From positions 2,340,001 through 2,404,000 of the forward strand of contig NZ_CP117229.1 in assembly GCF_028596125.1 (NCBI RefSeq): a DNA stretch of 64,000 nucleotides, in the 5' to 3' direction. The stretch comes from Listeria innocua. GTDB lineage: Bacteria > Bacillota > Bacilli > Lactobacillales > Listeriaceae. The notes under the pieces are model-generated. The model did no database searches, was not told the origin of the DNA, and saw only the letters and a program-made list of their open reading frames with translations. The translations under genes and the position numbers were made by a program. This document shows positions 23,717 to 33,230 of the stretch, piece after piece. How positions within the stretch are numbered: position 1 is the stretch's first letter; each line of letters begins with the position of its first letter.

Positions 23717-26700
23717 TTATTTGGCAGATGGCATAACTCTAACATTATCAATATGAATACTTGTTCCACCTTTAGAGTCCATCACAAAACTTGTATTAAT
23801 ATTTCCTGTTGTTACTTTGACATCCTTAATTGAAACATAATGCCAAACATTATCAGCTACTAAATCAATAGTCTGACCTTCACTGCTATCGTAGTTATTA
23901 ACTGTCATTTGTGCTTTTGCAGTATCATCTTTACTTACTTTAACCCACGCTTCCACATCGTAATTCGCATTATTAGTCGGAACTGCGATTTGTTGCGCTA
24001 GTGTTTGCTGGTAAGCTCCTGGTAGGTAGAAATAAGCGCTCTGACTTCCAAAAGCTGGTGATTCTGGAGGATTGACACCTGAACCACTATCAACGCCGTA
24101 TGCCTTATCCTGACCGTCCGGATGAGACTCTACCCAATTAGTAGTTGCAGCAGGGTCACGTTCAAAACCGCCGTTATCAAGTAGATTTACTTCTGATTGA
24201 ACCGGACTGTTAATCGGATCCGCTGAGACAAGGATTCTATCAATATTGATATTTCCTGTAGTTTCACCGTCCATTAAGAAAGTGATTTTATTTGTACCAG
24301 CTTTTAAATTCACAGCTTTTTCTGTATCAGTCCAAATATTCCAGTTTTCACCTTCTGAAGGGAAAGTTACGCGAGAATTATAAGTACCATTTGTGTACAA
24401 ATCAAGCGTTTGCGGCATCCCACTTCCATTTGCAGTTCGGGTATTTAGCACATATTCCCCGTCCGCTGGCACATCCACTTCAAACTTGATTTCATCTCCT
24501 GCTGCTCCAAAGCCGCCAACAAAGCCTTCTCCACTATAGAACCAATGATCATTTGCCACTTTTAAAGTTCCAGATAGAGCTGCTTCTTCCGCTTCTACTT
24601 TTGCTACAGTTGGAGTGAAACCGATATTTACTTTGTCTAATGCGACTTGATCTGCTTTGTCGCCTGTGTCTGTAACCACTTTATAAGAGATACTATTTTT
24701 TCCTGCTGCAAGTGGTAAGTTTTCCGCTTGAACAGTCCAGTCCGCTGCCGGTTTTAAAGTTGTTTGTTTTACATATTCACCATTTACAAAAATACTTAAT
24801 GATTGGTTATCTTCGGAAGCATTTTTGTATGTTAAATCAACATTATAATCGCCAGCATCTTTTACATTTGCGTAAATCGTTGTTCCAGAGCCATCTGAAT
24901 CATATCCATCTACATAGGTTTGTTCAGTTACAGGTTTTTCAGCAACTATATTTGCAAAACTAGAACCTTTTTCCATTTCATATGTTCCAGTTTGTTCCAC
25001 GCTTTTAGAACCGGTTGCTGTAATAACTGTATCTGCGTCTCCTTGAGCTGGTACTTTCACATAAGTTACTGCGCCATAAATATCGCTAGAAACAGCATAA
25101 CCACTTCCATCTGCATTTTCGAGCGCAGATAAATCATCGTATAATTTGCTATCAGTGCCATTAACTTGGACACTTTCAGCAGCATTTCCGTGTAGTTTTA
25201 CAATGTAATTTTCTGTGTCAGCTTTGTAACTTCCTTCTTTCGCGCCAACTGTGAAAGTAGTAGTATCTGCTGTTTTCGATGTTGTCATTTTTTGTTTCAA
25301 ATAAACTTCTTTTTCATAATCAAAAGATTTTCCATCGTCATCATAATGTGTAAATGAAGTATCTTTTTCAGAAGCAAATGTGTCTAAATAAACGGTTTTA
25401 ACTGCGGATTCACCAACATAGTTTTGCGGCTGTTGCATTGGTATAATTGCGCCCTGCTTAACGAACATCGGAACATCCGTCCAGTCTTCGTCATTTACTT
25501 CATAATTGATAGTTTGGTTCCCTTCGTAGATATCACCACGATTATAGTCTATCCAAGTTCCCGCTGGTAAATAGATTTCACGCGAACCGGCACCCTCTTC
25601 TAAAATAGGAGCTGCAAGGATAGCATCACCAAACATCCATTCATTTGTTAGGTTAACTACATTTTCATCTGTTGGATTATCAAAAGTAAGTGGTTGAACA
25701 AGTCCTACTCCAGATTCATAAGCTTGTCTTTCATAGGCATACATGTATGGAATCATTGAATAACGCCAAGTCATACTACTTTTCGCCACTTCTTCTGCAG
25801 TCCCGCCGTAATACCAAGGTTGACGTTGTTGATTATCATTACCATGTGTTCTAAATACTGGTACAAGAGAGCTAAACTCCATCCAACGACTATAAAGTTC
25901 TGGATCTGGATTTAATACTTGTCCAGAATTGGCATTAAAACCACCTGTGTCCATGCCCCATTTCGTTTGACCTAAATTGATAGTAGACAACATCGTACTT
26001 GGTTGTTCTTGCATTCCATTTGCCCAGTCAATTACTTCGCCTTTTTTCCATTGGACGCCGATATCGCCTGACCAAATAGATGTGGAGTAGCGCTGAGCTC
26101 CTGGATAATATGTTCTTCCAGTCTGCCAAACACGTTCATTCGTGTAATCACGTTGACCTTCATACATTGCTTGAGATGTAAAACCTGTTGTGAAATTCCC
26201 AAACCAATAATCCGCTCCATTGGAGGATACTTTGTCAGTTTCATCATTCCACCAACCGACGATACCTTTATCCAGCGCATCTTCAGAATGAGACCACCAC
26301 CAATTACGTTCATCCGGATTATACGGATCGATACTTCTAACAGTAACTGGGAACGCGTAATCTTCATACGCTTCTTGGCCTGGATACCAGTAACCATTTG
26401 CCTCAGCATCTTTACCTTGTTGCGTTTCCGTTCCATCTTGTAGATTAGTTACCACACGAGGTTTAGTAATACCAATCATTTTTACACCTAGTGCATCCAT
26501 ATCATTTTTTAAAGTAGTGTCTTTTGCGGATGGGAAATTAGTTGTATTCCAAGCAAATTCACCGTAATCCCCTCCATAAACAGGATCTCCGTAAAACTTC
26601 CAATCGTAGTCAAAAGCAAAAGAATCAATCGGAATTCCCTTAGCACGATACGTATCAATATTTTTACGGAATTCATCTTCATTTGTTCCCCATTCGAAAT

Positions 26701-27649
26701 TGGAGAAACCAAGAGACCATTTTGGCATCATAGGAGTATGACCAGTTACATCAGCGTAAGAGGACATGATTTCTTCAGGTTCCCCTGACATCAAGTACAT
26801 TTCTACATTTTCTTTTTCGTAACGACGGCCTTCAACAACGGAATCCCCGTAATAGAATTCCAGCTTTTCTTCGTCTGAAACAGAATAAGGATAACCCCCG
26901 TCACTGTCTACTAAAAGGCCATAACCTGCTGTAGACCACATGAACGGGCCACCAGCATTACCTTGTTGACCTGCTTGAGCTGTCTTCCCGCTATTTGCAG
27001 CTGTATTATCTCGCTCCATCCCAAGGTCTCCGTCACTAAAACTAATACCATAAGCTCCGTAAACATGGTCAGTTGCACCACGTTTAAATCTCACACCGCC
27101 ATCGAAAATTCCACCATCAGCCGACTCAGATAATAAAGTTTTTCCCTCTTTATCTTTAAAAGTCATTCGTGCTGGTTCTTTAGAAATTTCAAGTGTGCAT
27201 TCGTCCGTTGAAATAACCATAGGATCAGATTCTAAATCAATCTCAGCCCCAATTGCTGTAAAAGTTGCATTAGGGTCAATCATCGGTGTTGACTCACTAT
27301 TTTCGATATTTCGTGGTCGTAAATTAACTTTAAGCAAATTATTGGCAAGTGGTGAAATTTCTAAGTAGTCATCTTCTGCTTCATCCCCGTTATCAATTTT
27401 TAGCGTGATAACATTGTCTGTTACAGTTGCCTCTAAAACATTTCCAAGCCCTTCTTCTGCACTTAACTTCGCATATTCTTCTTTACTAAGTTGTTTTGCA
27501 GTTTCTCCATTCGCTTGTTGTTTCACTTCTTTTTTCTCTGTTTCTTCTGCGTTAACTTCTACTTCTAATGGTTGCGTTATCCCTAAGTTCAACCAAACAA
27601 GCGGCACAACAGCCATACTGACACAAACTTGCTTCATCCCTTTTTTCAT
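23717..27649 (-). CDS. Secreted GH31 6-alpha-glucosyltransferase-like enzyme (cycloalternan pathway)
   Basis: About 1310 aa. A Sec signal leads to an N-terminal beta domain, then the GH31 barrel with nucleophile in GWWNDETDK (~residue 470) and acid/base in IWSGDIGVQW (~530). Proximal and distal beta domains follow, then two CBM35-like modules (VDGYDSDGSGTTIYA; VEAEEAALSGTLKVAN...NIDRILV) and a C-terminal jelly-roll CBM (DNGGFERDP...IHIDNVRVMP). Size and architecture match 6-alpha-glucosyltransferase (CtsZ) of Bacillus globisporus, which makes isomaltosyl-maltooligosaccharide, the precursor of cyclic tetrasaccharide. ATG 27649 lies 7 bases after AAGGAG; an ATG at 27667 overlaps the upstream stop (ATGA). 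No sortase motif. Exact specificity is inference. Confidence 0.9.
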   Translation of the reverse strand: MKKGMKQVCVSMAVVPLVWLNLGITQPLEVEVNAEETEKKEVKQQANGETAKQLSKEEYAKLSAEEGLGNVLEATVTDNVITLKIDNGDEAEDDYLEISPLANNLLKVNLRPRNIENSESTPMIDPNATFTAIGAEIDLESDPMVISTDECTLEISKEPARMTFKDKEGKTLLSESADGGIFDGGVRFKRGATDHVYGAYGISFSDGDLGMERDNTAANSGKTAQAGQQGNAGGPFMWSTAGYGLLVDSDGGYPYSVSDEEKLEFYYGDSVVEGRRYEKENVEMYLMSGEPEEIMSSYADVTGHTPMMPKWSLGFSNFEWGTNEDEFRKNIDTYRAKGIPIDSFAFDYDWKFYGDPVYGGDYGEFAWNTTNFPSAKDTTLKNDMDALGVKMIGITKPRVVTNLQDGTETQQGKDAEANGYWYPGQEAYEDYAFPVTVRSIDPYNPDERNWWWSHSEDALDKGIVGWWNDETDKVSSNGADYWFGNFTTGFTSQAMYEGQRDYTNERVWQTGRTYYPGAQRYSTSIWSGDIGVQWKKGEVIDWANGMQEQPSTMLSTINLGQTKWGMDTGGFNANSGQVLNPDPELYSRWMEFSSLVPVFRTHGNDNQQRQPWYYGGTAEEVAKSSMTWRYSMIPYMYAYERQAYESGVGLVQPLTFDNPTDENVVNLTNEWMFGDAILAAPILEEGAGSREIYLPAGTWIDYNRGDIYEGNQTINYEVNDEDWTDVPMFVKQGAIIPMQQPQNYVGESAVKTVYLDTFASEKDTSFTHYDDDGKSFDYEKEVYLKQKMTTSKTADTTTFTVGAKEGSYKADTENYIVKLHGNAAESVQVNGTDSKLYDDLSALENADGSGYAVSSDIYGAVTYVKVPAQGDADTVITATGSKSVEQTGTYEMEKGSSFANIVAEKPVTEQTYVDGYDSDGSGTTIYANVKDAGDYNVDLTYKNASEDNQSLSIFVNGEYVKQTTLKPAADWTVQAENLPLAAGKNSISYKVVTDTGDKADQVALDKVNIGFTPTVAKVEAEEAALSGTLKVANDHWFYSGEGFVGGFGAAGDEIKFEVDVPADGEYVLNTRTANGSGMPQTLDLYTNGTYNSRVTFPSEGENWNIWTDTEKAVNLKAGTNKITFLMDGETTGNINIDRILVSADPINSPVQSEVNLLDNGGFERDPAATTNWVESHPDGQDKAYGVDSGSGVNPPESPAFGSQSAYFYLPGAYQQTLAQQIAVPTNNANYDVEAWVKVSKDDTAKAQMTVNNYDSSEGQTIDLVADNVWHYVSIKDVKVTTGNINTSFVMDSKGGTSIHIDNVRVMPSAK

Positions 27650-27663
27650 CATCTCGCTCCTTT

Positions 27664-28608
27664 TCATTCAGTAATTGTTACAGGAAAATCATACCACCCT
27701 AAATATTCTGATCCATTGTAATTTAGTGAGATTTCTAACAAATGTTCACCAGGCTCTAATCCTGCTGTTTCAATAGTGTACATGTAAGAACCCGTATAGG
27801 ATGGATACACTGGTTTATAAAGAAATTCACCGTTATCATTAATTATCATCTCGTTCCCAGGAGCTGGTGCGATAAAATCTAGCGCTTGATAAATAAACGG
27901 CACAAAAACATCTAAATTTTCGCCTTGTTTAATTGTCCTTGGAGGATAGGTTGCCGTCTGTCCATCAAACGAACGATTCCTAATTTGCCCAGTTAGAAAA
28001 ATATCTTCTGGAATTGATATTAAATGATTATCACGAAGAAGTAATGTTTCTAAATTAGGCATATTCATCCAAATATCTTTCGCTATATATCCAGAAAGTT
28101 CTGCTTGCTCCATGTTAATACTGACTAATTTTTCCATCCCAATGAACTCAGGAATATTAATTCCGAAATTATTTTTACTAAAGTCTACTGTCGTTAAATT
28201 AGGATAATTTGCGTTTGGAAATTGAGTAATGTTTGCATCAGATGCTTTTATAGTTTCTAAAGCAGGAAGACTCTCCGATAAGTCAGGCATCTCGCCAATA
28301 TTATTACTCCAAATAGCTAATTCTGTTGCGTTTGTAAAAACTTCATTATTCAATACATTCAAATCTTCCCCAGTTAAATTTAACCCTGGAAATGGTAGGA
28401 TTGTGATTGTATCTAAATCTTCTTGCGTGATAATATCATTTACAGAATCTTTATCCAATTCTTCAGCAATCGCCTCAGCAATTGCTTCAACTGGAAATGC
28501 CTCAATGATTGGAGCTGGCAAAGGAACTGTATCCGCTTGCACTTTTATTGTTGGTGAAAGTAAAATACAACAACTTACAATGAACAACAATCCAATTATC
28601 TTTTTCAT
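27664..28608 (-). CDS. Secreted leucine-rich-repeat (internalin-like) protein, 314 aa
   Basis: A signal peptide (MKKIIGLLFIVSCCILLSPTIKVQA) is followed by the cap VFPVEAIAEAIAEELDKDSVNDIITQEDL-type segment and about four to five LRRs (NLTTVDFSKNNFGINIPEF, NLETLLLRDNHLISIPEDIF). A C-terminal Ig-like domain of ~100 aa (PPRTIKQGENLDVFVPF...DFPVTITE) ends the protein. No wall anchor. It matches the internalin-like protein lmo2445 in position. It sits between the two GH31 genes and its stop overlaps an ATG of the next gene, so expression is tied to the enzymes. Confidence 0.88.
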   Translation of the reverse strand: MKKIIGLLFIVSCCILLSPTIKVQADTVPLPAPIIEAFPVEAIAEAIAEELDKDSVNDIITQEDLDTITILPFPGLNLTGEDLNVLNNEVFTNATELAIWSNNIGEMPDLSESLPALETIKASDANITQFPNANYPNLTTVDFSKNNFGINIPEFIGMEKLVSINMEQAELSGYIAKDIWMNMPNLETLLLRDNHLISIPEDIFLTGQIRNRSFDGQTATYPPRTIKQGENLDVFVPFIYQALDFIAPAPGNEMIINDNGEFLYKPVYPSYTGSYMYTIETAGLEPGEHLLEISLNYNGSEYLGWYDFPVTITE

Positions 28609-28666: not shown

Positions 28667-31600
28667 TTATTTAATTACAACATGATCAAAGTTAATTCCC
28701 GCTGTATCGCCTGCTTCAAAATCAAAGACGACTTGGTTAATACCATCTTGCAAGGTTACTGGCACTTCCACTACGTCCCAAGTATCCCAGTCAGTCGTTT
28801 TCGGTAAAGCAATTTGTTGTTTGTTGCCATTTACATAAACCGTTCTTGTAGCATCTTCCACACCCGCGCTATAACGCACTTCCATCGTATAATCGGATGC
28901 CCCATCAACTGCATCAATATCAAACTCAACTGCTTCTTTTTCTTCATCAAATCCAGCTACAAAACCAGTTCCAGTGTAGCCAGCATGGTCACTTGCAGTT
29001 GATACATTTGTTAAATGCCCGAATTCCGCTTCATAAGGTGCATGATTTACACCATTTAAAACGATAGCCTGAGTAGTGTCTGTTGCTGCAGTTTTGATGT
29101 AAGTTAAGTTTTGTACAGTGTCATAGTAATAAGCGCTCGTTGCTTCATTAAAGGCATCTAGTGTGTCTGCTTTAGCTACCTCAGTTCCTGCAACTGTTAC
29201 ACTTGTTGGCTCTGTACTGAAAACTTGCATCGTTGTTTCATCTGCCATTGCCGGAAGATTGACCGTAACTTTTTCATTTGCAAAGTCTTCAGAAACGCTA
29301 ATGTCACGCATCTCGCCACCATTTACATCATCATAGAAACTGTACTCGCTGTTTCCTGATGGGTAAACTCGGAACGTTAAATTATCATACGCTTTTAAAT
29401 CGTTACCTACATTTTGTCCTAGTTGGTAACCATCTGTCATATTCATTGGAATAATCGCTCCAGCTTTTGCAAATACAGGTAGCGTATCAACATCTGCATA
29501 GTAAGAAATTGTTTCGCCACCTGGATGGATACCGCCGTTCCAAATATCTATCCATTCGCCTTCTGGTAAATAAACTTCTTTTTCTGTTTGGCCTTCTTGT
29601 ACAATTGGTGCTACAAGTAAATCATCGCCAAACATATATTGTTCATCTAAATTACGCGTATTAATATCTTCTGGATAATCCATAGCCATTTGACGCATCA
29701 TAGATTTCCCATTATCAGCAGTATCTTTTGCCGCTGTATAAATATAAGGAAGTAAATTCATACGTGTATATAAATATTTTTGGAATGTTGGTAAAATCGT
29801 TTCGTCGCCAGTTCTAGCTACTGCATTCCACGGTGAGCGTTCTTCACTTGGCGATGGATCTGATTTTTCCGAGTGGAACTGCATAATCGGTGCAAAAGCC
29901 GCCATTGCTGTTGCGCGTTTATAAAGTTCTGCTGTTGGATAATTTCCTGTGAATCCTGCCATATCCCATGCCCAGTAAGAAACGCCTGATGTTGATGCAC
30001 TAAGACCTGCTTTTACGGATGCTTGGAAAGAATCAAATGTAGAAGTTTGATCTCCAGACCAGTAAATGCCCGATTTTTGTGCCCCTGAAGTTCCAGAACG
30101 GCTAAAGGAAACTGCCTCTGGATTTATACTTTTTGCAAAATCGAAATAGCTGGAAACATAATCTGTTGGATAACGGTTTCTCATTTCTTGCCCTTTTTCC
30201 CCGTTAGAAAAAGTTGTATCACGGCCCCAAACCATTTCTCCACCATCTGTCTTGAATCCATCAATTCCGACATCTGTTAGTAAATATTCACGTTGAGATG
30301 TCCACCAATTTACCGCATCTTTATTTGTGAAATCTAGTAAAATCCCGTTACCAAACCACTGAGATGCTGGAACTCGGTAAGGCGCCCCTGTTCCATCGTC
30401 CGCACTGTACCCTTGACTTATCATGTAGTCTTCATCATTATCTCTTTGTTCATACACTGTATTATCATCTTTTAATACAGGAACTTGCCATAATACAATG
30501 TTCATTCCTGCATCATGTACGCTGTCTACCATTGCTTTTGGATTTGTCCATTTCCCGTTAAATGTAAAATCATCATAGGCAAAAGGTTCACCATTTTTCT
30601 TCGCAGTATATGTCGCGTCGTTCCAAATGTAGTAAGTTTCTTCATCACTCCATTGTTCTAATACAAATCCCGTTGCTGGAATTTCATTTTCTTTTGCATT
30701 AGAAAGTGCTGTACTTACATCAGATTCTCTATCCCATTCATTTGCTGACATCCAAAGTCCGAATGCCCATTTTGGTAATAATGTAGTTTTTCCAGTAATA
30801 TCTGTGTAGTTATTTACAATATCATTTTGATCTTTTCCGCTGATGACATAATAATCAAGCATATTCGTCATATCGCCATCATTATCTAAAATAAAGCTAT
30901 ATTTGTCTTCTACTTTTGAAGCCATTTGGAATTGTGAATGAAAATCAGAATTCACAAACATACCATATTTATTTGCACTTACAAAAAACGGTACTGCTAA
31001 ATAAGTTCGTTCAGTTTGTGCTTGGTCTTGGTACTCATTATAAACATAGGTTTCAACATCTTTGCCTCGTTGATTAATAGTATCGTAACGTTCACCAAAA
31101 CCATAGAACGCCTCATCACTTGGCGTCATAAAATTATTTTGATACTGATTGATAACATTTTTGCCATCTGTCAACCAACCTAAGCTGTTGGCAGTTGTAT
31201 ATTCACTTGTAAGTAGAGTTCCATCTGCTTGGTACACTTCCATGCGGTAAGGAGACTTTTGGATTTCTACTCGCAAATCGTCAGTTGTAACTGTTACTTT
31301 ATCTGCACCATCATCTACTGTGTAACCAGTTTTTCCAGCATGTCCAGTTTCTTTACCGGTTGGTGATAGTTCCATACGAAGTGTATCTAAATCCTCAAAC
31401 GAAAGATATAATTTTGGAGTGAATTCACCTGCAGTAGCTGTCATATTTAATGTAATAGAATCTCCATTATCTACAACGCTGCTGACATCTTGCACATACT
31501 CCCAGTCCGTCACGTAAAATGTAAACGGACCACTTTCATATTCAGTTCCTCCGTCAGTAGAACCTTTTGTTGTATAAGTAATTTCATCGCCTTTTTCAAA

Positions 31601-31939
31601 TTTTCCTAAATCTGCTTTCCAGTAAGTATTGTTCCCGCTATTATAATCATAAGCTGCTGTAACATTTTCTTGTGCTACCCCGTTTTTAGTCCATTCTACC
31701 CAAACATTTTGTCCATCTTCAATTGGCCAGGTAGTAATATTTAATGTCACGTCTTCACCAGCTTTTGGATCTCTAGGAGAACGTTCTGTTGGTTGGACAG
31801 TATATAGATCATCATCCCCATATGGCGAGTGATATTCCCCATCCATCGCGAAAACGTTTGTCCCAAATCCACTTAAACAACTAAATATTAGTATGGTCAA
31901 AATGAAAATTAAACTAGATTTTCTTCCCTTTCGCTTCAT
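28667..31939 (-). CDS. Secreted GH31 isomaltosyltransferase / cycloalternan-forming enzyme
   Basis: A 1090-aa protein with a Sec signal ending near NVFA (residue 31), an Ig/CBM-like N-terminal domain (residues ~45-145) and a GH31 N-terminal beta domain. The barrel has its nucleophile in GIDGFKTDGGE (~565) and acid/base in IYWSGDQTS (~630). Beta domains and a C-terminal CBM35 (YEAEFGHLTNVS...INFDHVVIK) follow. Size and order match 3-alpha-isomaltosyltransferase CtsY of B. globisporus and the L. monocytogenes cycloalternan-forming enzyme Lmo2446, which cyclises alternating alpha-1,3/alpha-1,6 tetraglucose from starch products. First gene of the operon; GGGAGG precedes the ATG. Confidence 0.92.
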   Translation of the reverse strand: MKRKGRKSSLIFILTILIFSCLSGFGTNVFAMDGEYHSPYGDDDLYTVQPTERSPRDPKAGEDVTLNITTWPIEDGQNVWVEWTKNGVAQENVTAAYDYNSGNNTYWKADLGKFEKGDEITYTTKGSTDGGTEYESGPFTFYVTDWEYVQDVSSVVDNGDSITLNMTATAGEFTPKLYLSFEDLDTLRMELSPTGKETGHAGKTGYTVDDGADKVTVTTDDLRVEIQKSPYRMEVYQADGTLLTSEYTTANSLGWLTDGKNVINQYQNNFMTPSDEAFYGFGERYDTINQRGKDVETYVYNEYQDQAQTERTYLAVPFFVSANKYGMFVNSDFHSQFQMASKVEDKYSFILDNDGDMTNMLDYYVISGKDQNDIVNNYTDITGKTTLLPKWAFGLWMSANEWDRESDVSTALSNAKENEIPATGFVLEQWSDEETYYIWNDATYTAKKNGEPFAYDDFTFNGKWTNPKAMVDSVHDAGMNIVLWQVPVLKDDNTVYEQRDNDEDYMISQGYSADDGTGAPYRVPASQWFGNGILLDFTNKDAVNWWTSQREYLLTDVGIDGFKTDGGEMVWGRDTTFSNGEKGQEMRNRYPTDYVSSYFDFAKSINPEAVSFSRSGTSGAQKSGIYWSGDQTSTFDSFQASVKAGLSASTSGVSYWAWDMAGFTGNYPTAELYKRATAMAAFAPIMQFHSEKSDPSPSEERSPWNAVARTGDETILPTFQKYLYTRMNLLPYIYTAAKDTADNGKSMMRQMAMDYPEDINTRNLDEQYMFGDDLLVAPIVQEGQTEKEVYLPEGEWIDIWNGGIHPGGETISYYADVDTLPVFAKAGAIIPMNMTDGYQLGQNVGNDLKAYDNLTFRVYPSGNSEYSFYDDVNGGEMRDISVSEDFANEKVTVNLPAMADETTMQVFSTEPTSVTVAGTEVAKADTLDAFNEATSAYYYDTVQNLTYIKTAATDTTQAIVLNGVNHAPYEAEFGHLTNVSTASDHAGYTGTGFVAGFDEEKEAVEFDIDAVDGASDYTMEVRYSAGVEDATRTVYVNGNKQQIALPKTTDWDTWDVVEVPVTLQDGINQVVFDFEAGDTAGINFDHVVIK

Positions 31940-32005: not shown

Positions 32006-32106
32006 AATTATTAATTTTTGCATATCTATGATTGTAGAAATAATCACATAATGTTATAATTCTTTCACAGATACACTAAAAAAGTTCAAATTACTAATAA
32101 TCCTAC

Positions 32107-32159
32107 AAAAAAACGCAACTATGCCAGACCATTCTTCATGGAAAAACAATAATTGCGTT
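32107..32159 (-). terminator. Terminator in the leader upstream of the GH31/LRR operon
   Basis: Minus-strand arms AACGCAATTAT (32149-32159) and ATAGTTGCGTT (32112-32122), with one G-T pair and an inner CCAT/ATGG hairpin, are followed by seven T (32107-32113). It works only in the minus direction. It ends a short transcript that begins between the regulator and the operon. Confidence 0.75.
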
Positions 32160-32185: not shown

Positions 32186-32224
32186 TTAAAACAACCAGTT
32201 AATACTTTTGAACAAAGTTAACAT
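32186..32224 (-). CDS. Candidate 12-aa hydrophobic signalling or leader peptide
   Basis: ATG 32224 to TAA 32186 encodes MLTLFKSINWLF. A perfect AAGGAGGG stands 8 bases before the ATG, in a gap where nothing on the opposite strand explains it. The ORF lies 97 bases upstream of, and divergent from, an Rgg/RNPP-type regulator and ahead of a strong terminator. Streptococcal RopB is controlled by SIP, a leaderless hydrophobic octapeptide encoded in exactly this kind of gap, so a leaderless pheromone is one reading. A regulatory leader peptide for the GH31/LRR operon is another. Translation is inferred from the ribosome site only. Confidence 0.5.
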   Translation of the reverse strand: MLTLFKSINWLF

Positions 32225-32269
32225 GTCTTCTCCCTCCTTTTTCATCTATACAGAAATACTAACTCACAA

Positions 32270-32302
32270 ATCTTACATAAAATTAAAAAGCATCAAATTT
32301 GA
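32270..32302 (-). promoter_or_regulatory. Candidate promoter and palindrome for the peptide transcript
   Basis: Minus-strand TTGATG (32291-32296), a short 15-bp spacer and an extended -10 TGTAAGAT (TAAGAT at 32270-32275) lie about 45 bases before the 12-codon ORF. The 10-bp palindrome TCAAATTTGA (32293-32302) overlaps the -35, 19 bases before the regulator ATG, and is a plausible site for the regulator itself. Confidence 0.4.
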
Positions 32303-32321
32303 ACAAATGGAGCTGAGTTTT

Positions 32322-33230
32322 ATGCAAAATATTGGTGATACATTAAAATTTATTCGGAAAAGTAAAAACTTAACACAACAAGAGGCCTGTACAAATGCTC
32401 TCAGTCGCTCTAATTATCAAAAAATCGAGAATAATAAAATCATGCCTAGTATGGACCGTTTTATTCAAATCTTACTTAATTTCAATATGACGTTAGAAGA
32501 ATTTGAATTTATAAAACGAGACTTTACACCTTCTCCAAAAGAAAATATCCTTTATCTATACTCCAAGATTATTACCTCCTCAGAAACAGATATGATACTT
32601 AATGTTATTTCCAAATGCGACGACTACTTAGAAACCCACAACGATATTTTTATCTCTGACATTAAAGCCTCACTTGAAGGCATTTTACTAGCTGAAAAAG
32701 AACATAATTTTAAACTTGCTCGAAAGAAAGTAACCTACATTTGGGACAGGCTTTCGGAAGCTGATGAATTATTTTGGAATGACATATTAATATTAAGAAA
32801 TATTTTCTTTATTTTTGAAAATGAAACTGCTCAACATATTGTAAATCGTCTTATTTCTCAACTTAAAAAATATCGTTACTTATATCCAACACTTTCGATT
32901 GAGATTTCTCTTCATGTTAATCGTGCTACTTATTTAATTTTGGACGAAAAATATGAACTAGCTTTGCACTACATTGAATTATCTATTAAAATCGCTAAGC
33001 ATAACCATTATTACTTACAATTTTGCATGGCTGTTGCGAAAAAAGGAATTGTTCTGTATAAGCTAGGTGAAAAACAAAAAGGTAAACACTTTATGCAACG
33101 AGCGCTCAGAGTGGCTAAAGTGCTTGAAGAAGAACGTATTTTAAGCGGGATTAAAAATGAAATCGATTATTTTCTTCATGATGAGATGCATAACCTCTCT
33201 TTGAATGAATTTACAAAAATAGACATATAA
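32322..33230 (+). CDS. Rgg/RNPP-type transcriptional regulator
   Basis: A 302-aa protein. Residues ~1-60 are an XRE helix-turn-helix (MQNIGDTLKFIRKSKNLTQQ and SRSNYQKIENNKIMPSMDRFIQIL). The remainder is all-helical with TPR-like repeats (ALHYIELSIKIAKHNHYYLQF, GIVLYKLGEKQKGKHFMQRALRVAKVL), the fold that binds peptide pheromones in Rgg, PlcR and PrgX proteins. ATG 32322 has GGAG 9 bases upstream; in-frame ATGs at 32208 and 32307 have none, and 32208 would overlap the candidate peptide gene. Divergent from the GH31/LRR operon and by position its likely regulator (lmo2447 locus). Confidence 0.85.
   Translation: MQNIGDTLKFIRKSKNLTQQEACTNALSRSNYQKIENNKIMPSMDRFIQILLNFNMTLEEFEFIKRDFTPSPKENILYLYSKIITSSETDMILNVISKCDDYLETHNDIFISDIKASLEGILLAEKEHNFKLARKKVTYIWDRLSEADELFWNDILILRNIFFIFENETAQHIVNRLISQLKKYRYLYPTLSIEISLHVNRATYLILDEKYELALHYIELSIKIAKHNHYYLQFCMAVAKKGIVLYKLGEKQKGKHFMQRALRVAKVLEEERILSGIKNEIDYFLHDEMHNLSLNEFTKIDI

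Follow-up and report, generated by a model that had tools for sequence, protein, structure and literature searches.

The closest described counterparts of the locus analysed here are pairs of a short peptide and an Rgg-type or Rgg-related receptor. In the SHP/Rgg2-Rgg3 systems of streptococci, a short hydrophobic peptide gene occupies the divergent gap beside the Rgg gene, and its product is a pro-peptide of 20-30 amino acids with a basic/hydrophobic N-terminal part and a processed C-terminal octapeptide. In ComR-XIP systems, the ComS gene is located downstream of ComR. Listeria monocytogenes has a pheromone of its own, PplA, the peptide of which is lipoprotein-derived. The leaderless communication peptides (LCPs), for which SIP and its receptor RopB serve as the reference in this work, are mostly 8-10 amino acids long. 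LCPs of unusual length also exist, and the short-peptide/Rgg pairs assayed in the same paper act between cells, according to its available text (PMC10518010). The Listeriaceae are not among the families listed there, and the main text, its supplement aside, does not mention 'Listeria'. Type II XIP carries a WW motif, as stated in the available passages of PMC5131891. For L. monocytogenes, five Rgg-like proteins are counted, Lmo0833 and four others, in the source on PplA, whose accessible passages mention no micro-ORF beside lmo2447 (PMC4379056). Among the literature matches listed, in a search with subscription papers and supplementary tables outside its range, there was no description of the peptide-regulator pair reported below, and the published passages among them that name lmo2447 give no ligand for it.

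The window, by which we mean the whole stretch of 64,000 nucleotides of Listeria innocua DNA under analysis, carries a peptide gene of 12 codons divergent from an Rgg-type regulator gene. The locus resembles the LCP/RopB systems in its Rgg-type regulator, in a divergent ultrasmall ORF with a strong Shine-Dalgarno (SD) sequence about 100 nt away, in a hydrophobic peptide without visible leader, and in putative activator sites near or upstream of the -35 position. It differs from them in that the peptide, of 12-13 amino acids compared to mostly 8-10, contains S, N, and K or T. The description 'RopB-like' in an earlier note on this DNA could be retained in part: RopB residues N152, F155, Y176, and N192 are kept here as N160, F163, Y184, and N200, whereas RopB Arg188, the anchor of the peptide C-terminus, corresponds to Ser196, and the receptor is placed apart from the SIP/RopB rows in a midpoint-rooted tree that holds two SIP receptors only, on a long branch of 2.5. 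The pair is not placed in the RopB/LCP clan because of this substitution and this separation in the tree. Another basic residue, R159, is a candidate contact for the carboxylate at the C-terminus of the peptide. Four SIP loci, from six matched Streptococcus genomes, were read as positive controls; all four adjoin an Rgg gene in the same divergent layout and encode MWLLLLFL behind a strong ribosome site, at a distance of 124 nt in three loci and 268 nt in the fourth. Counts of the SIP pattern itself were at chance level among 395 genomes of the order (3 versus 16 for the reversed control) and uninformative among 197 Streptococcus genomes (6 versus 6 for the control).

The SHP systems share with the locus the Rgg receptor and the short hydrophobic peptide gene in the divergent gap. 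However, 12-13 amino acids are too short for a leader plus an octapeptide, and the peptide has no Gly-Gly end, which is found in many of the peptides from outside the genus. Lys occurs at position 6 in three of the 12 ortholog peptides, and the other nine contain none. The resemblance to type II ComR-XIP lies in an Rgg-related receptor and a Trp-centred peptide; in contrast to type II, SINWLF has a single Trp, WW being found in sister peptides of the same receptor group, and in contrast to ComR-XIP in general, the peptide gene is divergent, not downstream, and no competence target was seen. PplA is alike as a Listeria peptide pheromone (PMC4379056, in its available passages) but is a different peptide.

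Peptide Gene and Its Setting

On the minus strand of the window, an ORF at 32186..32224 runs from an ATG at 32224-32222 to a TAA ending at 32186 and encodes MLTLFKSINWLF (codons ATG TTA ACT TTG TTC AAA AGT ATT AAC TGG TTG TTT TAA), a candidate Rgg pheromone with the core SINWLF. The ORF reading of the earlier note was thereby reproduced, and the three elements that it had placed around the ORF, namely a strong ribosome site upstream of the ATG, a terminator downstream, and a divergent Rgg-type regulator from 32322, were recovered as well. The SD sequence AAGGAGGG lies at 32232..32239 of the minus strand with a spacing of 7 nt to the ATG, a hairpin of terminator type and a T run follow the ORF at approximately 32159-32107, and the regulator, whose start at 32322 is 97 nt off, matches Rgg_C and HTH models above gathering. 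The L. monocytogenes allele, whose leader letters are identical to those of the window, shows an anti-SD duplex of -13.3 kcal/mol. In the annotated L. monocytogenes record NCTC7974, the gene table of which is incomplete, no gene is listed between the enzyme and the regulator. A gene of 12 amino acids is small enough to escape notice, and the product of this one has the appearance of a bacterial signal peptide of a new kind, for which a mode of action is proposed below.

Conservation among Listeria Orthologs

Orthologs of the regulator were sought in 25 genomes of the genus, and 12 were found at 83-100% identity, that of the window included. Alignment of the gap across Listeria, which the earlier note had proposed, showed that the ATG, the ribosome site AAAAAGGAGGG, the 12-codon frame, and the stop are kept in 12/12 orthologs with synonymous drift. 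The 12 peptides are MLTLFKSINWLF in the window, MLTLLKSINWLF (two orthologs), MLTFLTSVNWLF (four), MLNFLTSVNWLF, MLTFVTSINWLF, MLTFLTSINWLF (two), and MLTFLTSINWIF. Over all ortholog pairs, pN/pS of the micro-ORF is 0.25 (pS 0.30, pN 0.075). Of the 13 distinct changes in codons 2-12, 7 are non-synonymous, compared to 9.8 expected from permutation, a modest result (P = 0.024) from orthologs that share descent and are not independent; by halves, the same test has no power and was not significant (P 0.19 and 0.21). Invariant columns make up 88% of the box described below, 56% of the spacer before the ribosome site, 71% of the ribosome site, 67% of the ORF, 52% of the stretch after the stop, 39% of the terminator stem, and 49% of the stretch before the enzyme. 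Gaps are absent from the 56 columns of the ribosome site and ORF and occupy 35 of the 229 columns downstream, but the gap-free ORF is weak evidence because the 43-column upstream spacer is equally gap-free. A divergent ORF at 80-130 nt is found in all 12 orthologs, compared to a mean of 0.11 of 12 in shuffled sequences (100 dinucleotide shuffles per region).

The peptide MLTLLKSINWLF is present in two named L. monocytogenes records and in three contigs filed as Listeria phage with L. monocytogenes as host. Five records filed as Listeria plasmids or phages (NZ_CP030101.1, NZ_LR134400.1, OR846809.1, OR846849.1, and OR848262.1) carry the chromosomal locus and look mislabelled; five 'phage' matches come from unannotated records, and the three inspected look like Listeria chromosome. 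A scan of viral contigs for relatives gave seven pattern matches, none of which is a relative.

Rearranged Locus and Co-Occurrence with the Enzyme

A 13th genome (G004) has a regulator only 47% identical to that of the window, and no divergent micro-ORF turned up next to this regulator in the upstream scan. In G004, the cycloalternan enzyme comes after the regulator on the same strand, and an ORF of 13 amino acids, MLATILESINWLF, stands directly before the enzyme with a ribosome-site duplex of -12.7 kcal/mol. The N-terminal half of this peptide is altered by substitutions and one extra codon, while SINWLF is identical. The box reads TGTTCATATTTGATG, a single change away from TGTTCAAATTTGATG, and the distance from its end to the ATG is 65 nt, compared to 66 nt in the window; by eye, GTATAAA is found at the matching -10 place. 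The terminator is a different hairpin with a T run, and little else is alike, by eye, outside the box, SD sequence, and ORF. As read from the sequence, the operator-like box, ribosome site, SINWLF, and enzyme have stayed together through the rearrangement. The term 'leaderless' of the earlier note holds insofar as no leader is visible, but the N-terminal half varied in G004 while SINWLF stayed, which makes a signal that is processed, or recognised by its C-terminal part, no less likely.

The cycloalternan enzyme is present at an identity of at least 77% in 13 of the 25 genomes, namely the 12 ortholog genomes and G004; in G015, it is in pieces. Of the 25 Listeria genomes, the 13 with the enzyme, and no others, contain the core S[IV]NW[LI]F followed by a stop. 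Among the 395 genomes of the order, the corresponding DNA pattern with near variants matched 14, compared to 4 for the reversed-pattern control; the 14th match, in one Streptococcus, is attributed to chance because it lies out of frame within a 569-codon gene and has no good ribosome site. A loss of the ATG, frame, or ribosome site among relatives, which the earlier note had named as evidence against the gene, was thus found neither in the 12 orthologs nor in G004, and the core accompanies the enzyme. A chance ORF was considered and ruled out by the 12/12 conservation, the shuffle counts, the G004 locus, and the co-occurrence of core and enzyme.

Putative Promoter, Operator-Like Box, and Terminator

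A -10-like TATAGAT at 32244..32250 (minus strand), exact in 9/12 orthologs, could serve as the promoter of the peptide gene, and transcription would then start near 32238. No good -35 is visible before TATAGAT in the window. Farther upstream, an operator-like box TTGTTCAAATTTGATG at 32291..32306 (minus strand) contains the palindrome TCAAATTTGA at 32293-32302 and conforms to TGTTCAAATTTGATG in 12/12 orthologs. The earlier note had the palindrome overlapping a candidate -35, which does not hold given the conserved TATAGAT as -10, since the palindrome would be centred near -60 relative to the predicted start. The genome contains one exact copy of the 16-nt box, one copy with one mismatch, and three with two, and a scan at up to three mismatches is not interpretable (92 matches versus 41 for the reversed control). 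The one-mismatch copy (G000:C2:2310145-2310160) is intergenic and lies upstream of an apparent membrane-protein gene, approximately 62 kb from the micro-gene.

The predicted peptide transcript would end at an intrinsic terminator at 32107..32159 (minus strand), whose stem and T-rich tail are found in 11/12 orthologs; the remaining one (L011) has retained a short stem but shows no clear T run. The predicted fold of 32245-32096 has an energy of -35.8 kcal/mol (z -2.43). A generic terminator scan did not list the hairpin at approximately 32159-32107, probably because its stem is too long and imperfect for a scan of that type. A weak half operator may be represented by TTTGAAC at 32084..32090 (minus strand), ahead of the promoter that belongs to the enzyme itself. 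TTTGAAC or TTTGAAT occurs in 8/12 orthologs and is degraded in the other four (L003, L004, L008, and L011), and no second copy of the box was seen by eye before the enzyme in G004.

Regulator and Neighbouring Operon

The regulator, the ortholog of lmo2447 at 32322..33230 (plus strand) and the proposed receptor, belongs to the Rgg family of the RRNPP superfamily, with an XRE-type HTH and a C-terminal TPR-like domain. HTH_19, HTH_3, and Rgg_C match above gathering (Rgg_C 35.1 bits, cut-off 27), and TIGR01716 narrowly meets its cut-off (37.4 versus 36.9 bits). The matches of a profile built from 25 relatives include the full length of the solved Lmo0325, RopB and streptococcal regulator chains, and, over the HTH only, PlcR. 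A structure prediction made from the window protein together with three orthologs (mean pLDDT 51, pTM 0.34) is too poor to show a pocket.

The inferred target operon lies on the minus strand and comprises the cycloalternan-forming enzyme (GH31; 28667..31939), which is the lmo2446 ortholog and co-occurs with the peptide in the 13/25 genomes; an LRR/internalin-like protein (27664..28608), the lmo2445 ortholog, with Lmo2445-like_C and Internalin_N; and a GH31 + CBM enzyme (23717..27667), whose gene order is as in the annotated L. monocytogenes record and which, by that order, we take to be the lmo2444 ortholog. In the available parts of the literature, a rex mutant shows a 10.76-fold increase of the lmo2447 transcript (PMC8389512, Table 1), and lmo2447 is named the most down-regulated gene, at more than 13-fold, during desiccation (PMC6987299). 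Likewise, the accessible passages state, with reference to other work, that full virulence requires the alpha-glucan operon (PMC13068326), and describe lmo2445 as higher at 25 than at 37 degrees C (PMC3443086). In PMC5689173, again as far as its available text extends, lmo2445 is listed as co-evolving with the small RNA rli30; there is no link to the micro-gene here.

Related Regulators and Their Micro-ORFs

A scan for a divergent ATG-initiated ORF of 7-30 amino acids with a ribosome-site duplex of -9 kcal/mol or lower covered the sequences upstream of 63 loci in the genus and 73 outside it, with 100 shuffles each. A genus listing of 90 places supplied 30 loci and 40 stretches; for the loci outside the genus, 74 places were taken from a separate listing, mostly by rank. 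Omitted before the counts were L029, L030, L054, and L072, in which no start codon was found, and L021 and L061, with an ORF below 150 amino acids; L015 and L115 were omitted from the scan for their short upstream regions. At 80-130 nt, a micro-ORF was found in 21 of 30 genus paralogs with E<1e-15 (0.21 in shuffles), in none of 21 remoter genus paralogs, the lmo0325 type included (0.09), and in 16 of 73 loci outside the genus (0.83), with a same-strand control of 0 in every group; the genus paralogs include orthologs of each other and are not independent. When the distance was widened to 30-330 nt, the counts were 12/12 for orthologs (shuffles 0.63), 25/30 for E<1e-15 paralogs (1.23), 0/21 for remoter paralogs (0.55), and 24/73 outside the genus (4.80), and the same-strand control gave 0, 1, 0, and 1, respectively.

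In a maximum-likelihood tree of 120 receptors with midpoint root, from which 20 receptors had been omitted by hand (near-duplicates, short upstream regions, and L036), the rows of the window sit in a group of 12 with support of 97/84. All 12 rows of this group have a peptide with Trp near the C-terminus, the ends being ...GHWWV, ...SNWWIG, ...QWWM, and ...SINWLF or a variant. Two labels of the tree need a word of explanation: the label 'none' at L028 arises from its MFSLFTAPLALLCGHWWV, which at -7.6 kcal/mol falls short of the stricter cut-off, and the peptide label of L013 is the non-divergent ORF of G004, entered by hand.

Matches were found in 28 plasmid records, and of the five inspected, two are chromosomal sequence. 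On three Listeria plasmids, those of L. innocua, L. ivanovii, and L. monocytogenes, the relatives stand as tandem pairs or have three micro-ORFs. On L162 (NZ_CP103398.1) and L164 (NZ_CP076670.1), tandem Rgg genes each have their own divergent micro-ORF, encoding M[FV]LTLAVVSVIVTVLSHGQVGG and MFSI[FL][AT]APIALLCGHWWV. On L. ivanovii pLIS46 (L163:2500-3001) and in G011 (L025:1100-1501), three successive micro-ORFs, each with a ribosome site, precede one Rgg gene and encode MTGLIQVLIQWWM, MNK[NY]LGFILY[SL]NWWIG, and MK..FQKWGHWWM; L163 has a weak fourth micro-ORF.

Further micro-ORFs were observed beside other relatives. A second Rgg paralog in the genome of the window (L072/L029, G000:C2 ~844300), found also in G003 (L030), has the micro-ORF MMQMINWFFGSSNYLR, which has INW[LF]F in common with the window peptide. 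The regulator frame of L072/L029 shows no ATG, GTG, or TTG near the HTH and a good ribosome site before an ATT, and G003 is the same in this respect. L039 (G008) and L108 (G101, from another genus of the family) have a like 12-amino-acid peptide, MLASV[LF][VA]YFII[VA], beside related Rgg proteins. In another receptor group of the genus (L018, L048, L050, and L042), the micro-ORFs lie 245-270 nt from the regulator, compared to approximately 95 nt, and their peptides end in G and contain GH towards the C-terminus. At L139, L141, L142, L129, and L140, which are outside the genus, very short peptides with Gly-Gly ends, such as MVYIIWFVGG and MIELFLIWLAGG, are encoded beside Rgg genes; they are SHP-like, almost without a leader.

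Alternative Explanations

A strict leaderless communication peptide of the RopB/LCP class, in which the whole 12-mer would be exported, re-imported, and read unprocessed, is possible although doubtful. Such a peptide would agree with the lack of a visible export leader, with a divergent anatomy that is the same as at the SIP loci, and with the unusual lengths of some LCPs (PMC10518010, in its available text), but the receptor falls outside the two SIP/RopB rows of the tree and lacks the anchoring Arg, and the N-terminal half is variable with a change in codon length. A purely intracellular feedback, with the peptide binding Rgg in the producing cell and never being secreted, is unlikely: the action between cells of the short-peptide/Rgg pairs mentioned above and the plasmid copies with their own peptides, which would fit communication, argue against it, while the tiny hydrophobic peptide without a leader would suit it.

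It is highly improbable that the micro-ORF and terminator form a leader-peptide attenuator, which would govern read-through into the enzyme operon by ribosome pausing, the peptide being no signal. In the 12 orthologs and G004, the ORF and terminator point the same way as the enzyme gene, and the stretch folds stably, as an attenuator would have it; however, there is no run of one regulatory codon, SINWLF shows silent codon drift, no competing antiterminator helix was seen in the single fold examined, and AGAAGAC/GTCTTC complementarity is found in L001-L008 only. Moreover, the enzyme-less genomes G007, G008, G010, and G024 have micro-ORFs beside Rgg genes, and two Listeria plasmid loci carry such pairs without the enzyme nearby. 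A small regulatory RNA with an incidental ORF, to which a short predicted transcript with its own terminator might point, is scarcely credible in view of the frame, the SD sequence, and protein-level conservation with silent drift, a likeness in G004 confined by eye mostly to the box, SD sequence, and ORF, and the absence of any Rfam family near its gathering score (one match, 11.4 bits versus 180).

Proposed Mechanism and Significance

The probable explanation, in our judgement, is that the Rgg protein and its pheromone form an autoinducing pair, which would activate the promoter of the peptide and presumably the alpha-glucan operon as well. The ORF is conserved, is linked to the regulator, the box, and the enzyme, and recurs beside sister regulators, and the case for the autoinducing pair draws on four lines, none of which depends on the counts of another: the rearrangement in G004, the exact match between genomes with the core and genomes with the enzyme, the recurrence beside sister regulators compared to shuffles, and the Trp core in the receptor group. 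In the proposed mechanism, 32224-32186 would be translated into a short hydrophobic pheromone, the recognised part of which is probably the C-terminal SINWLF, and the divergent Rgg protein would be its receptor. Once it has bound the peptide, Rgg would occupy the TTGTTCAAATTTGATG box, some 60 bp ahead of a promoter without a -35, and activate the peptide transcript in a positive feedback, the transcript stopping at its own terminator. Peptide-bound Rgg may also raise the adjoining cycloalternan/LRR operon, via read-through or a second, weaker site. We infer translation, binding, activation, and operon control from these sequence arrangements, the last because of the linkage of the operon to the peptide-regulator locus. 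The least certain elements are export and re-import, i.e., true cell-cell signalling, and the mature form, which could be the whole 12-mer or a C-terminal fragment.

For the wider group, we see an even chance that Listeria has an Rgg-pheromone family of its own, apart from RopB, SHP, and ComR, with leaderless peptides and a C-terminal Trp core ([N/H/Q]W then W, L, or F). SINWLF would then be the chromosomal member tied to cycloalternan/LRR surface functions, and its WW relatives, some in tandem pairs or triples, would be found on plasmids. The locus offers a concrete and conserved candidate ligand for the lmo2447-type regulator, together with a putative operator, promoter, and neighbouring operon, and whether Listeria talk via Rgg peptides becomes directly testable with the synthetic 12-mer. 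In addition, a simple scan uncovers many further micro-genes in the genus, plasmids included. If Listeria does have such a pheromone family, its members would together form a communication network, mobile in part, throughout a genus that comprises a food-borne pathogen and harmless species.
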